The notes below the pieces were generated by a model, which saw only the letters and a program-made list of their open reading frames with translations, did not search any database and was not told the origin of the DNA. Shown here in pieces: positions 51,150-55,270 of a DNA stretch of 64,000 nucleotides (positions are counted from its first letter, which is position 1; every line of letters begins with the position of its first letter). A program made the translations under genes and the position numbers. Source of the stretch: Planosporangium mesophilum. Lineage in GTDB: Bacteria; Actinomycetota; Actinomycetes; Mycobacteriales; Micromonosporaceae. Location of the stretch: positions 1-64,000 of the forward strand of contig NZ_BOON01000010.1 in the NCBI RefSeq assembly GCF_016863255.1, written 5' to 3'.

Positions 51150-51275
51150 CGGACGCAGGTCCGCCAAGGGCGCGCGGTTCGTTTCGCACCATGCGCATGT
51201 CAATAGACAGGCGCGAATGCGATGTGGTCTTGTGGAGGTCAATCCAGCGAACCTAATCAACCCACGGGGGACGCG

Positions 51276-51797
51276 ATGGTTGCTCGCCTGGCTCGTAGGA
51301 CGCTGCTCAAAACCTCCGCCGCGACGGTCGGTGTCTCCGCGGCGGGAGTGCTCATCTTCAACGGGGAGGCGCAGGCCGCACCGGCCGCGCCGGTTCACTC
51401 AAGCATCGCCCGGGTGGTCCGCCATGAGGGGGACTCCGCGGTGCTGAACGTCGTGTCCGGGCGACTTCCGGCCGGTACGACCGTCACCGCACCGGTCCGC
51501 GGCTTTCCGCCCGGCTGGCGGCTGGACGAGGGTGACCTGGTGATGTTGAACGGTGACCGCGGCCTCGACCCCGACGCGGCCACCCCGCTGGTCACCCGGT
51601 TCATCGGTCGCGTGGAGGGCCAGACCTCCACCGAGATCGACATCGCCGGGGCGCGGGTGCGGACCACGGGGGCGACGCTCCGGCAGAGCCAGCCGGTCAT
51701 CGGCGCCAGCCGCGGCCAGCAGTTCTTGGCGCTGTGCGTGAAGAACGACCTGACCGGCGCGTACACGTGCTTCTCCCTGCGCCCCACCGCCGCCTGA
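51276..51797 (+). CDS. Tat-exported protein of mau-like cluster, copy A1
   Basis: 173 aa from ATG 51276, preceded by GGGGGAC. The signal MVARLARRTLLKTSAATVGV…GEAQA is twin-arginine type, cleaved probably before APAAP. The mature ~140 residues look all-beta (SIARVVRHEGDSAVLNVVSG, TVTAPVRGFPPGW, EGDLVMLNGD, TPLVTRFIGRVEGQT) and end with two cysteines spaced 11 apart (CVKNDLTGAYTC). No known family was recognised. Its paralogue A2 is 2.5 genes downstream. In the cluster it takes the place that the large subunit gene mauB holds in methylamine dehydrogenase operons. A short barrel-like partner or binding subunit is one guess; function unknown. Confidence 0.8.
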   Translation: MVARLARRTLLKTSAATVGVSAAGVLIFNGEAQAAPAAPVHSSIARVVRHEGDSAVLNVVSGRLPAGTTVTAPVRGFPPGWRLDEGDLVMLNGDRGLDPDAATPLVTRFIGRVEGQTSTEIDIAGARVRTTGATLRQSQPVIGASRGQQFLALCVKNDLTGAYTCFSLRPTAA

Positions 51798-51835
51798 CCA
51801 ACGGCGACGGATAGGGCCGCGCTGCTGACGCGGTC

Positions 51836-51962
51836 GCCCTGGTGATTCACGGCGGCCGAGTTTCTCACGGCACGACCGTGCCGGGAAGTCGGCCGAGTCG
51901 GTACTGCTGTCGGCCGCGTCCGCTTCCATGTTGTTGCCTGTGTCGAACGGGAGGGACCAGGA
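51836..51962 (+). pseudogene. 3' remnant of a mauD-like gene
   Basis: The sequence GCCCTGGTGATT…CACGGCACGACCGTGCCG matches in phase the end of the intact mauD-like gene (from about 53967). Then about 52 nt are missing relative to that gene, which shifts the frame. After this, GGAAGTCGGCCGAGTCGGTACTGCTGTCGG… again matches up to the B start. No start codon or upstream part is left; the first ~140 codons and the whole mauE-like gene are deleted. It is a scar from the cassette duplication. Confidence 0.85.
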
Positions 51963-52319
51963 ATGAGTACCACGGTGACGGATGGTCCGAGTACGTCCGT
52001 GAAGCGTCGGGGCCTGCTGCGCATGCTGAGCGTAGGCGGAATGGCCCTGGTCGGTGGGCTGGCCGGCGCGACCGCCTTGCCCAAGGCGGCCGCGGCGGAC
52101 TGCCAGGGCTCGCCATGCTGCTACCTGGCGTCCTGCACGAAGTGCAGCGGACGGTGCTGGGGCTGGACCTGCCCGAGCGGCTACTACCGGACCTACTGGT
52201 GGTGCATGGCCGGAACACGGCCAATCGTGTGTGGCGAGTGCGTGAAGAACAACACCGGTGGGTGCGGCAGCGGACCGTACGCCTGCTCGTACTGGTTTGA
52301 CGACAATGCCTGTAACTGA
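51963..52319 (+). CDS. Tat-exported 13-cysteine protein, MADH light chain-like, copy B1
   Basis: 118 aa from ATG 51963, with GGGAGGGACCAGGA upstream. Twin-arginine signal (SVKRRGLLRMLSVGGMALVGG…PKAAAA). The mature part is only ~73 residues and holds 13 Cys and 4 to 5 Trp. Key stretches are DCQGSPCCYLASCTKCSGRC, CWGWTC, CPSGYYRTYWWCMAG, IVCGEC and ACSYWFDDNACN. Cys density, the C-P-x-G…W-x-C segment and the Tat signal recall MauA, the methylamine dehydrogenase light chain, which has six disulfides and a Trp-derived cofactor. The protein is much shorter. Whether any Trp is modified is unknown. Oxidative folding by the MauE/MauD-like pair is the likely requirement. Confidence 0.82.
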   Translation: MSTTVTDGPSTSVKRRGLLRMLSVGGMALVGGLAGATALPKAAAADCQGSPCCYLASCTKCSGRCWGWTCPSGYYRTYWWCMAGTRPIVCGECVKNNTGGCGSGPYACSYWFDDNACN

Positions 52320-52436
52320 CCGGGTCTCTTGGTCGGTCCGATTGGCGTCATGACGAAAGTCAATCGAGAAATATCGATCTAGACTGCTCCTCTGATGGTC
52401 AAGTCAGCGAACCTCATCGAAACCACGGGGGACCCT

Positions 52437-52955
52437 ATGGTTGTTCGCCTAGCTCGTAGGACGCTGCTCAAAACCTCCGCCGCGACGGTCGGTGTCTCCG
52501 CGGCGGGAGTGCTGATGTTCAACGGGGAGGCGCAGGCCGCACCGGCCGCGCCGGTTCACTCAAGCATCGCCCGGGTGGTCCGCCATGAGGGGGACTCCGC
52601 GGTCCTGACGGTCGTGTCCGGGCTGCTGCCGGCCGGCGCGACCGTCACCGCGCCGGTCCGCGGTTTCCCGCCCGGCTGGCAGCTCAGTGAAGGTGACCTG
52701 GTGATGTTGACCAGTGAGCGCGCCGTTTACTCCAACGCGGCCACCCCGCTGGTCACCCGGCTCGTCGGGCGCGTGGAGGGCCAGACCTCCGCCGGGGTGG
52801 AGATCGCCGGTACGCGCGCGCGGACCACGGATGCGACGATCCGGCAGAGCCGGTCGGTGACCGGCGCCAGCCGCGGCCCGTTGTTCGAGGCGTACTGCGT
52901 GAAGAACGACATGAGCGGTACGTATTCGTGCCTCGCCCTACGCCCCGCCGCCTGA
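52437..52955 (+). CDS. Tat-exported protein of mau-like cluster, copy A2
   Basis: 172 aa from ATG 52437 after CACGGGGGACCCT. The signal (VVRLARRTLLKTSAATVGVSAAGVLMFNGEAQA) is nearly identical to that of A1. The mature part is also close (PVHSSIARVVRHEGDSAVLTVVSGLLPAGATVTAPVRGFPPGW) and diverges more in the second half. The C-terminal Cys pair is kept (CVKNDMSGTYSC). It lies 15 bp before the mauE-like gene and is the first gene of the intact cassette, so it is probably transcribed with mauE-mauD-B2. No enzymatic motif was found. Confidence 0.8.
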   Translation: MVVRLARRTLLKTSAATVGVSAAGVLMFNGEAQAAPAAPVHSSIARVVRHEGDSAVLTVVSGLLPAGATVTAPVRGFPPGWQLSEGDLVMLTSERAVYSNAATPLVTRLVGRVEGQTSAGVEIAGTRARTTDATIRQSRSVTGASRGPLFEAYCVKNDMSGTYSCLALRPAA

Positions 52956-52970
52956 GCGGCGACGACGGTT

Positions 52971-53540
52971 ATGACGGTATTGACGGGGGTGTTGTCCGCT
53001 GCCTTGGCCGCGCTTCTGGTCTGGGCCGCGGCGGAGAAACTTCGGGCGCGCCGGGAGTTTTCGGCGACGCTGACGGCGATTCGGTTGCCGTCGTGGTTGT
53101 CGGCGGCCGGTGTATACCTGGTCCCGATCGCGGAACTGGTCGTCGCGGCTGGATTGATCGTCGTCCCGGGCCAGGCCTGGCCGCGCATCGGGGTGTTCGT
53201 TCTCGGCCTGGTATTCGCCGCCGCGGGTGTGCTCGCGCTCAGGACGGGGGAGTCCGTCCGGTGCTCGTGCCTGGGCGTCACGCACGATGGCCGGCTCGGC
53301 GCGCGTCAGATCCTGCTTCTGCCTGCCTGGATCGTGGCCGCCGGCTGGTTGCAGCAGTGGCCCGGGCAGTGGGAGTGGCGGACCGGTCTGCAGTATCTCG
53401 CCGCGCTGGTGGTCGCGGTCGCGGCGGTACGGGGTGTTCAGGTGGCCAGGCTTGCCCAGGCCGCGGCGGGCTATCGGGCCGCTACGACCGAGGCCACCGT
53501 AGAGCTGGCGTCCATCGTCGATGTGAGGGGAACACGTTGA
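52971..53540 (+). CDS. MauE/DoxX-like redox membrane protein
   Basis: 189 aa with four membrane helices (LTGVLSAALAALLVWAAAEKL; SAAGVYLVPIAELVVAAGLIVV; IGVFVLGLVFAAAGVLAL; and one or two later). The loop ESVRCSCLGVTHDGRLG contains the CxC that characterises MauE-type proteins. MauE works with MauD to form the disulfides of the methylamine dehydrogenase light chain. Here the natural client is the 13-Cys B protein. The stop overlaps the TTG start of the mauD-like gene. Confidence 0.85.
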   Translation: MTVLTGVLSAALAALLVWAAAEKLRARREFSATLTAIRLPSWLSAAGVYLVPIAELVVAAGLIVVPGQAWPRIGVFVLGLVFAAAGVLALRTGESVRCSCLGVTHDGRLGARQILLLPAWIVAAGWLQQWPGQWEWRTGLQYLAALVVAVAAVRGVQVARLAQAAAGYRAATTEATVELASIVDVRGTR

Positions 53541-54148
53541 CCATTGCCCTGTCGGCCGCAGTCGTCGTACTCGGCGGCCTCGTGCTTCTGCTGTTGGGTT
53601 CGCAGGTCGAGATGTACCGCAGCCTTGCGCAGCTCCGTGAATATGCCGGTCTGGTCGACAACCCGTTGGCGTTGGAGATCGGCGACAACGCGGGCGCGGC
53701 ACCGGCCAGTCGTGGTCTGCCGGATGCACTGGACCGCGCCGAGAACGCGGTCGTGCTGTTCCTGTCCGACAAGTGCGGTACCTGCCGTTCCATCGCGTCC
53801 ACGCTGGACGGCCGGATGCCACCCGATCTCTGGGTGGTGCTCGACCCGGCGGATCCGACGGCCACCGCGGACATCGCGCTGACCTACCGGCTAGCCGAAG
53901 AGCGCCTGGTCATCGACAGTACCCGTGAGCTCAGCGCCACGCTGGCAATGCGGACCACGCCGGCCGCCCTGGTGATTCGTGACGGCCGCATCTCCCACGG
54001 TACGACCGTGCCGTCCTCGCGCAGCCTGGAGGCTCTGCTCGACGCGGTTCGGGCCGGCCGTGCCAGGAAGCCGGCCGAGTCGGTACCGCTGTCGGCCGCA
54101 TCCAGTTCCATGTTGTCGCCTGTGTCGAACGGGAGGGGCCAGGAATGA
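53537..54148 (+). CDS. MauD-like membrane-anchored thioredoxin-fold protein
   Basis: 203 aa from TTG 53537 (TTGA overlap; GAGGGGA 5 nt upstream). One N-terminal membrane helix (IALSAAVVVLGGLVLLLLGSQVEMY) is followed by a thioredoxin fold with active site CGTC at residues 80-83 (VVLFLSDKCGTCRSIASTL). TTPAALVIRDGRI contains the cis-Pro region (TTPA). Length and layout match MauD, which acts in disulfide formation or isomerisation outside the membrane. The stop overlaps the B2 start by 4 bp, which ties the pair to that client. A second, broken copy lies before B1. Confidence 0.88.
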   Translation: MTIALSAAVVVLGGLVLLLLGSQVEMYRSLAQLREYAGLVDNPLALEIGDNAGAAPASRGLPDALDRAENAVVLFLSDKCGTCRSIASTLDGRMPPDLWVVLDPADPTATADIALTYRLAEERLVIDSTRELSATLAMRTTPAALVIRDGRISHGTTVPSSRSLEALLDAVRAGRARKPAESVPLSAASSSMLSPVSNGRGQE

Positions 54149-54516
54149 GTACGACGGCAACGGAGCCCGGGTCGGTGACGGCCTTCGAGGGCACGCCCGC
54201 GAAGCGTCGAGGTCTGCTGCGCATGCTGGGTGTCGGAGGGATGGCCCTCGTCGGCGGTCTGGCCGGCGCGGCCGCGCTGCCGAAGGCGGCCGCGGCGGAC
54301 TGCCAGGGCTCGCCATGCTGCCACCTGGCGTCCTGCACGAAGTGCGGTGGACGGTGCTGGAACTGGACCTGCCCGAGCGGCTACCGCAAGCAGTCCTGGT
54401 TCTGCATGGCCGGGGTACGGCCGATCGTCTGCGCCGAGTGCACGACCAGTACCAGTTCATGCTGGAGCGGGACCTTCGCCTGCTCGTACTGGTTCGACGA
54501 CAATGCCTGCAACTGA
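54145..54516 (+). CDS. Tat-exported 13-cysteine protein, MADH light chain-like, copy B2
   Basis: 123 aa, ATGA overlap with the mauD-like gene. Signal AKRRGLLRMLGVGGMALVGGLAGAA with PKAAAA at the cleavage region. The mature ~73 residues keep every Cys of B1 (DCQGSPCCHLASCTKCGGRC, CWNWTC, CPSGYRKQSWFCMAG, IVCAEC, SSCWSG, ACSYWFDDNACN). Between B1 and B2 the changes fall in loops while Cys, the CW-W-TC motif, the W-x-C motif and the C-terminal SYWFDDNACN are fixed, so the fold is under constraint. Function unknown; a redox or binding mini-protein of the MauA lineage is the best guess. Confidence 0.85.
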   Translation: MSTTATEPGSVTAFEGTPAKRRGLLRMLGVGGMALVGGLAGAAALPKAAAADCQGSPCCHLASCTKCGGRCWNWTCPSGYRKQSWFCMAGVRPIVCAECTTSTSSCWSGTFACSYWFDDNACN

Positions 54517-54661
54517 TGTGATGAACGTGGCGGTGCCGGCGCTCGCCGTCACCGCTGGGTTCGCTCAGTTGTTCAGCCCTTGAGGCACCTCGTTCGTCGG
54601 GATGCTCCGGTCCCTCACCAAGGGGCCGGGCGTCCCTGACGGCCCTCTCGGCGAGGGGGAG

Positions 54662-55270
54662 ATGTCACGGCGTGCGATCGACGTACGCCCAGTCGGGTCG
54701 CTCGTCGGCGGGTTTCTGCTGTCCTCGTTCGCCGTTTTCGCTCTGGCGACCGGCGTCGGGCGGGCGGTCGGTGCCCCGCTGATTCCGGAGACCGGGCGCG
54801 CGGTCGCCGTCGCCCTCATCGGCGTGGTGCTGTGTGCGTACGACATCGCCGCACTCCGGGGCGGAAAGCTGTGCCGGCTCAGTTGGCGGCGGCAGACACC
54901 CAAAAACTGGATCTACCGGTACGGGTCGCGCCGGGGCCCGTTCCTGTGGGGCCTCGACACCGGACTCGCCGTCACCACGTTCCGCGTCTCCGCCGCGACC
55001 TGGGCGCTACTGGCGCTGTGCGCCGGCCAGTTCGCTCCGTGGTGGGTCGGGCTCGCGTTCGGCGGCGGTTTCGCCGCGGCACAGGTGGGGGCCATCGTCG
55101 TACCGCGGTGGCGGCCCGCCAGGCCGGACGGCACGGCTCAGGAGCCGACGTGGATCGTCCGGGCGCTGATGCGGGGCAGACCCGTCGGGCAGCTCGCCAG
55201 CCTCGCGGTGCTCGTCGCGGCGGTCGCCTCCGTCGCGGTCCTGGCCGCCTCGGGTCCCTCGCTACCGTGA
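54662..55270 (+). CDS. multi-pass membrane protein at end of mau-like cluster
   Basis: 202 aa from ATG 54662, directly after GAGGGGGAG; the frame is open further upstream without homology-like sequence. About five membrane helices (VGSLVGGFLLSSFAVFALATGVG; VAVALIGVVLCAYDIAAL; VSAATWALLALCAGQF; WVGLAFGGGFAAAQVGAIVV; LASLAVLVAAVASVAVLAAS). The central loop CRLSWRRQTPKNWIYRYGSRRGPFLWGLDTGLAVTTFR looks conserved in character. It follows B2 after 145 bp in the same direction and may be a further component, such as an electron-transfer or export partner. I do not recognise the family. Confidence 0.65.
   Translation: MSRRAIDVRPVGSLVGGFLLSSFAVFALATGVGRAVGAPLIPETGRAVAVALIGVVLCAYDIAALRGGKLCRLSWRRQTPKNWIYRYGSRRGPFLWGLDTGLAVTTFRVSAATWALLALCAGQFAPWWVGLAFGGGFAAAQVGAIVVPRWRPARPDGTAQEPTWIVRALMRGRPVGQLASLAVLVAAVASVAVLAASGPSLP

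Follow-up and report, generated by a model that had tools for sequence, protein, structure and literature searches.

A mau-like operon of Planosporangium mesophilum with small exported cysteine-rich proteins and a MauF homolog that is most likely a selenoprotein

The mau operon of Paracoccus denitrificans (L030) carries mauR, mauF, mauB, mauE, mauD, mauA, the amicyanin gene, mauJ and mauG, followed by genes annotated napG and napH. In MauA, two tryptophans form the TTQ cofactor with the assistance of MauG. MauF is required for methylamine dehydrogenase, and to our knowledge neither its biochemical role nor its mechanism has been established. Comparable gene sets are found on a plasmid of Thermomicrobium roseum (L038) and among the actinomycete RiPP candidates proposed with decRiPPter (PMC7794033).

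The locus analysed here lies in a stretch of 64,000 nucleotides of Planosporangium mesophilum DNA (contig NZ_BOON01000010.1), hereafter the window. Its features are as follows.

51222..51797, + strand: A1, exported protein with an RR leader, first copy (ORF list; alignment A7)
51831..51962 (limits approximate), + strand: D gene remnant (3' end) from a tandem duplication, near-identical to the D end, with an internal gap
51963..52319, + strand: B1, exported Cys-rich protein, 118 aa, 73 aa mature, 13 Cys
52395..52955, + strand: A2, exported all-beta protein with an RR leader, second copy (ORF list; alignment; predicted structure)
52971..53540, + strand: E, redox membrane protein of the MauE family (PF07291, E 7.7e-19)
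53537..54148, + strand: D, MauD-like, with a thioredoxin fold, N-terminal hydrophobic stretch, CGTC motif and TTG start (hhalign against MauD 78%, E 1.8e-5)
54145..54516, + strand: B2, exported Cys-rich protein, ATG start, 123 aa, 72 aa mature, 13 Cys
54521..55270, + strand: F, MauF homolog with an in-frame TGA read through, 249 residues, proposed selenocysteine (Sec) at residue 21
54581..54583, + strand: TGA proposed as a Sec codon (S-P-U-G), aligned with the Cys of the MauF S-P-C-G motif
54607..54629, + strand: SECIS-like hairpin of 9 bp with a 5-nt loop (z -3.41 for the surrounding 40-nt stretch)

The full unit has the gene order A2-E-D-B2-F. Since a shortened copy of the D end lies between A1 and B1, the two B genes are products of a tandem duplication; the first unit has lost E and most of D. 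The Pfam match identifies E as MauE with certainty and the profile comparison matches D to MauD, so the mau-like gene set of the original prediction stands. The order of partner, E, D and small subunit is that of mauB-E-D-A.

Like the P. denitrificans operon, the window places homologs of MauE, MauD and MauF next to a small protein that is rich in Cys and has an RR-type leader, and it keeps the order from partner to small subunit. It differs from that operon in that the MauF homolog has a proposed Sec for Cys and sits at the opposite end, the small protein has an odd number of Cys and shows no detectable relation to MauA, A replaces MauB, and no MauC, MauJ or MauG gene was recognised in the system. 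F itself shares with MauF the S-P-[C/U]-G and [W/Y]-G-x-x-x-G-L motifs and an overlapping profile match, whereas it is shorter (249 versus 277 residues), carries the proposed Sec and occurs in a genome without a match of the MauA family or the MauG type. The T. roseum cluster resembles the window in having MauE, a thioredoxin-like protein (sub-threshold Redoxin match) and a MauF gene with TGA at the Cys codon (TGA-type), and is unlike it in encoding MauA-like light chains, one annotated as such, and propeller-like proteins. The decRiPPter candidates likewise set MauE and MauD next to a small Cys-rich protein in actinomycetes, whereas their description, in the part of the paper available, mentions no MauF, Sec or A-type protein (PMC7794033).

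The explanation that we consider probable is that B1 and B2, small exported proteins rich in disulfides, would have their cysteines oxidised and sorted by a dedicated, co-encoded membrane apparatus of MauE, MauD and a MauF homolog, the last being a selenoprotein in which the TGA at 54581-54583 is read as Sec at the Cys position of S-P-C-G. MauD, with its thioredoxin fold facing the cell exterior, would make or correct the disulfides of B, while MauE and the Sec-containing MauF would pass electrons across the membrane and hold MauD in the redox state that it needs. The Sec may serve as a faster or more overoxidation-resistant redox residue, and A, which occupies the place of mauB in mau operons, would be the likely partner of B.

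The distribution of the genes is consistent with this scheme. Profile searches at the 12 loci that carry B (the window, L008-L011, L013, L014, L016-L019 and L027) found E, D and F in 12/12 and A in 11/12, and from this co-occurrence B is probably the client of the MauE/MauD/Sec-MauF apparatus and A its partner. A is missing and D is split in L010, A is split in L009, and L008 has a split E, D or F. The three copies in Fodinicola feengrottensis (G033), among them L008, have apparent frameshifts, the assembly being 74% complete. In L008 (6790-7152) no stop separates the B frame from that of the MauF homolog, so that the two may be naturally fused, and F seems frameshifted further on. In Sinosporangium (L017, 2979-7914) the order is E-D-A-D-B-F, with two D genes and, downstream, more F pieces, an arrangement that would suggest duplication of parts of the unit. 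The predicted structure of A (pLDDT 81) has eleven strands and one helix; Foldseek matched it best to a tandem of cold-shock domains, at E 1.1e-3 and TM 0.53, with no match at E 0.001, which gives a hint that A resembles small beta barrels.

Once made, A-B may act as a redox pair, or it may be released as a product rich in Cys, which the available part of PMC7794033 suggests for Streptomyces clusters with mauE and mauD. A released, RiPP- or bacteriocin-like disulfide-rich product would have B as its precursor, E, D and F as its maturation proteins and A as a carrier or immunity-type partner, a reading that is compatible with the preferred explanation and not exclusive of it. That part of the same paper describes three candidate families from Streptomyces that have mauE, in one case also mauD, and precursors of at least 8 Cys, the loops of B vary while the Cys are kept, and both B and A are duplicated in the window. 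Against such a product, no exporter, protease or immunity gene was recognised by eye in the ORFs around the operon, and we regard it as possible but doubtful. The neighbours, also judged by eye, are genes resembling amino acid permeases upstream, and regulator and branched-chain amino acid transport genes downstream.

The B proteins themselves have largely the build first ascribed to them. With cleavage assumed just before Asp, the mature parts measure 72 (B2) and 73 residues (B1), in agreement with the predicted 73 or so, and each contains 13 Cys and 5 Trp. The C-W-x-W-T-C and W-x-C motifs and the tail SYWFDDNACN are present in both, and the two do differ at many positions, being identical at 54 of 72 aligned mature residues (75%). 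This pattern is more than chance, because relatives of the same layout sit in the same type of operon in other actinomycetes. With B2 as query, four of 200 genomes from the same order matched at E <= 0.001, and the match was strong in two, namely the own genome and G033 with its three copies; a species-level collection yielded nine B loci, including those three, and one family member is encoded on an Embleya plasmid. Among 396 genomes of the phylum five matched at E <= 0.001, of which only the own genome and G306, a distant family member, were kept. Weak matches in G151, G087, G537, G224 and G365 were dropped. In L009 no start codon of the usual kind lies close to the B leader.

Across the 13 sequences used for family statistics (B1 and B2 counted in), the picture of 13 fixed cysteines was too broad: it applies to B1, B2 and one Fodinicola copy (3/13), which make up the nearest clade, whereas the other ten have 11. 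Eight positions (7, 8, 25, 36, 45, 48, 55 and 62 in mature B2) hold Cys in 13/13. The odd number of Cys, by contrast, extends to the whole family, every count being 11 or 13. Cys20 and Cys71 are both missing in 8/13 sequences and both present in 3/13, and may therefore pair with each other. Because the odd count has been kept through at least two changes of Cys positions, there is a hint, based on few independent events, that one Cys of B has a fate other than an intrachain disulfide. The claim of conserved tryptophans survives for Trp34 (13/13) and Trp65 (11/13) and falls away for Trp21 and Trp23 of C-W-x-W-T-C, which are found in only 3/13.

A MauA-type pair of TTQ tryptophans in B, raised by the original prediction, is not supported: B1 and B2 had no match above cut-off in Pfam or NCBIfam, the comparison with MauA profiles gave nothing significant, and the second Trp is missing in 2/13. 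In hhalign, B scored 1.5% against eight MauA rows (reversed B 1.2%), 2.5% against these plus two Thermomicrobium rows (reversed B 1.1%), and 11.8% against the two Thermomicrobium light chains alone, over merely 11 columns (reversed 0.2%), while the same two light chains, as a positive control, matched MauA at 98.5%. The comparison became no firmer when two Cys-rich proteins, from G252 and G282, were included. PDB sequences offered no credible relative (best E 1.6). PF02975 had no match in B1 or B2 and none in the own genome (0/1), but it also matched 0/14 controls, so that the genome search says little. The question of whether two Trp side chains face each other as in MauA was carried as far as a model: AlphaFold2 folded B2 with pLDDT 61.5 from an alignment of 10 of the 13 sequences (L010 and L020 excluded as the most divergent, L011 and L022 not included), and Foldseek returned nothing at E < 1. 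A model this weak does not place the tryptophans, and equating Trp34 and Trp65 with the two cofactor positions of MauA would take an alignment or a good model. Membership of B in the MauA family is not supported by these comparisons, and a MauA-like function would still be conceivable.

It is on this evidence that a bolder proposal has to be judged, in which B is a miniature MauA whose Trp pair becomes a TTQ-like cofactor without MauG and A is the partner subunit, the two forming a redox enzyme. The shared order A-E-D-B and mauB-E-D-A, the C-P-x-G..W..C pattern common to B and MauA, the retention of Trp34 and Trp65 in most of the family, and the Thermomicrobium cluster, where light chains resembling MauA are encoded together with MauE, a TGA-type MauF and a thioredoxin-like protein, would all fit. 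We nevertheless think it very unlikely, since the profile scores scarcely exceed their reversed controls, Trp65 is absent from two sequences, the fetched MauA rows have 10, 12 or 14 Cys where B has an odd number, and A, a small protein that is all-beta and has 138 residues in its mature form, is below the size of a MauB-type propeller. The absence of MauG noted originally also holds, PF03150 matching 0/1 in the own genome (98.55% complete) and 2/14 controls. A longer shot still is that a Sec-dependent MauE/MauD/MauF apparatus builds the disulfides of B and also, without MauG, oxidises a conserved Trp jointly with either a second Trp or the odd Cys. The 8-kDa B would then hold a new redox cofactor derived from its own residues, and A would be a partner subunit of a new kind.

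The main result concerns F, a MauF homolog downstream of B split by an in-frame TGA, which the original prediction had missed. In a first reading F started at 54602, and that shorter protein matched nothing above cut-off; an ORF for a very small conserved peptide, placed between B and F, was given up once the in-frame TGA was noticed. The likely start is at 54521, upstream of the TGA. A search with ten F sequences (alignment A4; the L008 copy was excluded from F alignments for its apparent frameshift) matched 8/396 genomes of the phylum at E <= 0.01, of which the own genome, G306, G309, G282 and G252 gave sound matches, and the weak matches L044, L045 and L046 were dropped as lacking the S-P-C/TGA-G motif. 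The G252 protein reads T-W-S-P-C-G as MauF does and matches MauF at 98.1%, and F matches this G252 homolog at 94.5%. Aligned with its distant relatives, F matches MauF at 96.5% (reversed 0.5%); without these intermediates and without the part gained by read-through the match is weak, at 9.2% (reversed 0.2%). With the Sec/Cys position masked, the score of the F core against MauF rises from 6.4% to 56.6% when the 26 residues upstream of the TGA are added (reversed 0.1%), and that of a wider F set rises from 95.4% to 97.5% on read-through, with the masked positions aligned. By these profile comparisons F is homologous to MauF over the membrane domain. In Pfam, read-through F gave sub-threshold matches to Cation_efflux (the window protein) and to DsbD_TM (2/5 proteins), and in NCBIfam 20 it had no match.

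At the site of the Cys of S-P-C-G, 15 of the 16 MauF-like loci scanned carry TGA and one, G252, carries TGC (Cys). The context is S-P-[TGA]-G, with S-L in one locus, and the in-frame sequence ahead of F at the 12 B loci reads A-G-F-[AV]-Q-L-F-S-[PL]-TGA-G-x-S-F. The 15 TGA loci come from 13 genomes, G033 contributing three. Sec machinery was searched in 12 genomes (11 TGA carriers and G252, the Embleya and Thermomicrobium carriers lying outside this set). Matches to selA above cut-off were found in 11/12 and in 1/14 controls, and matches to selB in the same 11/12 and in 2/14 controls, the exception in both cases being G252, where selA had no match at all. A tRNA-Sec above 60 bits was present in 11/12, again except G252, and ARAGORN found the anticodon TCA at 13/14 tRNA loci, the fourteenth, from G252, being a tRNA-Ser. 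Weaker selB matches, to other GTPases, occur in 12/12 genomes at E 0.001, and the tRNA-Sec gathering score is passed by 12/12, G252 included, as well as by 5/14 controls, so these two lines rest on score, cut-off and anticodon. In the own genome the selA and selB matches adjoin (G000:C24:115782-118087), with a tRNA-Sec at C24:68835-68926. Since the TGA carriers are related and selA is common in the phylum (above cut-off in 226/396 genomes), the association is strong without amounting to 11 independent events.

A further signal lies in the codons. Over eight B loci, codon identity at invariant residues from +1 to +15 after the TGA is 0.87 (0.45 expected from codon use), against 0.45 (expected 0.40) further downstream and 0.59 (expected 0.45) upstream of the TGA. 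The codons fixed after the TGA are GGA, CGC, GTG, CAA and GGG, GGA and CAA being fixed though they make up merely 14% and 12% of their kind, and they span from just before the hairpin to its end. Such freezing of synonymous codons is what a SECIS hairpin would require. The hairpin, CCCCUU-CGUGC-AAGGGG, occupies nt 30-46 counting from the U of UGA. Its six pairs are formed in 88.9% of cells over the 12 loci, against a shuffled mean of 81.0, with 1/500 shuffles as high, and slid versions of the pairing give 33-75%; three pairs have changes on both sides, a number reached by 39/500 shuffles. In the window the folding reaches z -3.41, with 0/500 synonymous shuffles as low, while among the 15 TGA loci only three (window, L008 and L010) fold with a clearly low energy downstream of the TGA (mean z of the 15, -0.64). 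The SECIS consensus has a G near the start of the loop, and the window loop, CACCA, is without one there. An Rfam scan of the TGA region returned no family at gathering score. A SECIS hairpin after the TGA is likely, not proven.

From the TGA at the MauF Cys in 15/16 loci, the Sec machinery that tracks TGA versus TGC and the frozen codons, we infer Sec insertion at 54581-54583, and F is most likely a selenoprotein. That the TGA is instead a true stop ending a short leader peptide, with F starting downstream and the conservation being regulatory, would agree with the standard code and with the ATG or GTG starts downstream at several loci, yet it is extremely improbable, given that the residues flanking the TGA align unbroken with MauF and with the TGC-bearing homolog, that codons upstream vary synonymously at invariant residues (identity 0.59), and that selA, selB and tRNA-Sec follow TGA versus TGC.

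F appears to be a membrane protein with selenium that has gone unrecognised because a UGA, normally read as stop, hides its frame. A 2026 review (PMC13188914) states coverage of 119 prokaryotic selenoprotein families or subfamilies; in its Table 1, where some rows give no motif, no family is named MauF and no S-P-U-G motif appears, and a word search found neither Mau nor methylamine in its text. The same words were not found in the available text of PMC12013277, PMC9312934 and PMC1794560, and among the papers listed as linking selenoprotein with MauF or methylamine utilization, or selenocysteine with methylamine dehydrogenase, none was relevant as judged by title. If the reading is right, actinomycetes and Thermomicrobia would have a further selenoprotein family, one that is split in two under the standard code, and a protein with 11-13 Cys would be exported by a route that depends on selenium. 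The natural swap of Cys for Sec at S-P-C/U-G, tracked by the Sec machinery, points to a catalytic redox residue in MauF, and would turn the open question of its mechanism into a one-residue experiment.

Divergent clusters show other combinations of these genes. MauE genes lie beside F in G309, G282 and G252, and thioredoxin-like MauD-type proteins are also present in G282 and, by eye, in G252. In G309 (L047, 6185-7440) the TGA-type MauF and MauE genes are near each other, and the B profile found nothing there. In the T. roseum cluster (L038, 693-9325) the two light chains used have 17 and 15 Cys and a third was seen by eye, one propeller-like protein is fused to MauE, and the annotated MauF CDS starts after the TGA. 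In G252 (L049, 6235-9166), a genome in which no Sec machinery was found, MauE is fused to an apparent MauD domain, a small Cys-rich protein is encoded, and the Cys-type MauF is fused to a long C-terminal part, maybe a propeller. In G282 (L048, 4627-6231), whose cluster includes MauE, a MauD-like gene and a TGA-type MauF, a Cys-rich region follows an RR leader and is fused to a long tail of what we take to be LGFP repeats.
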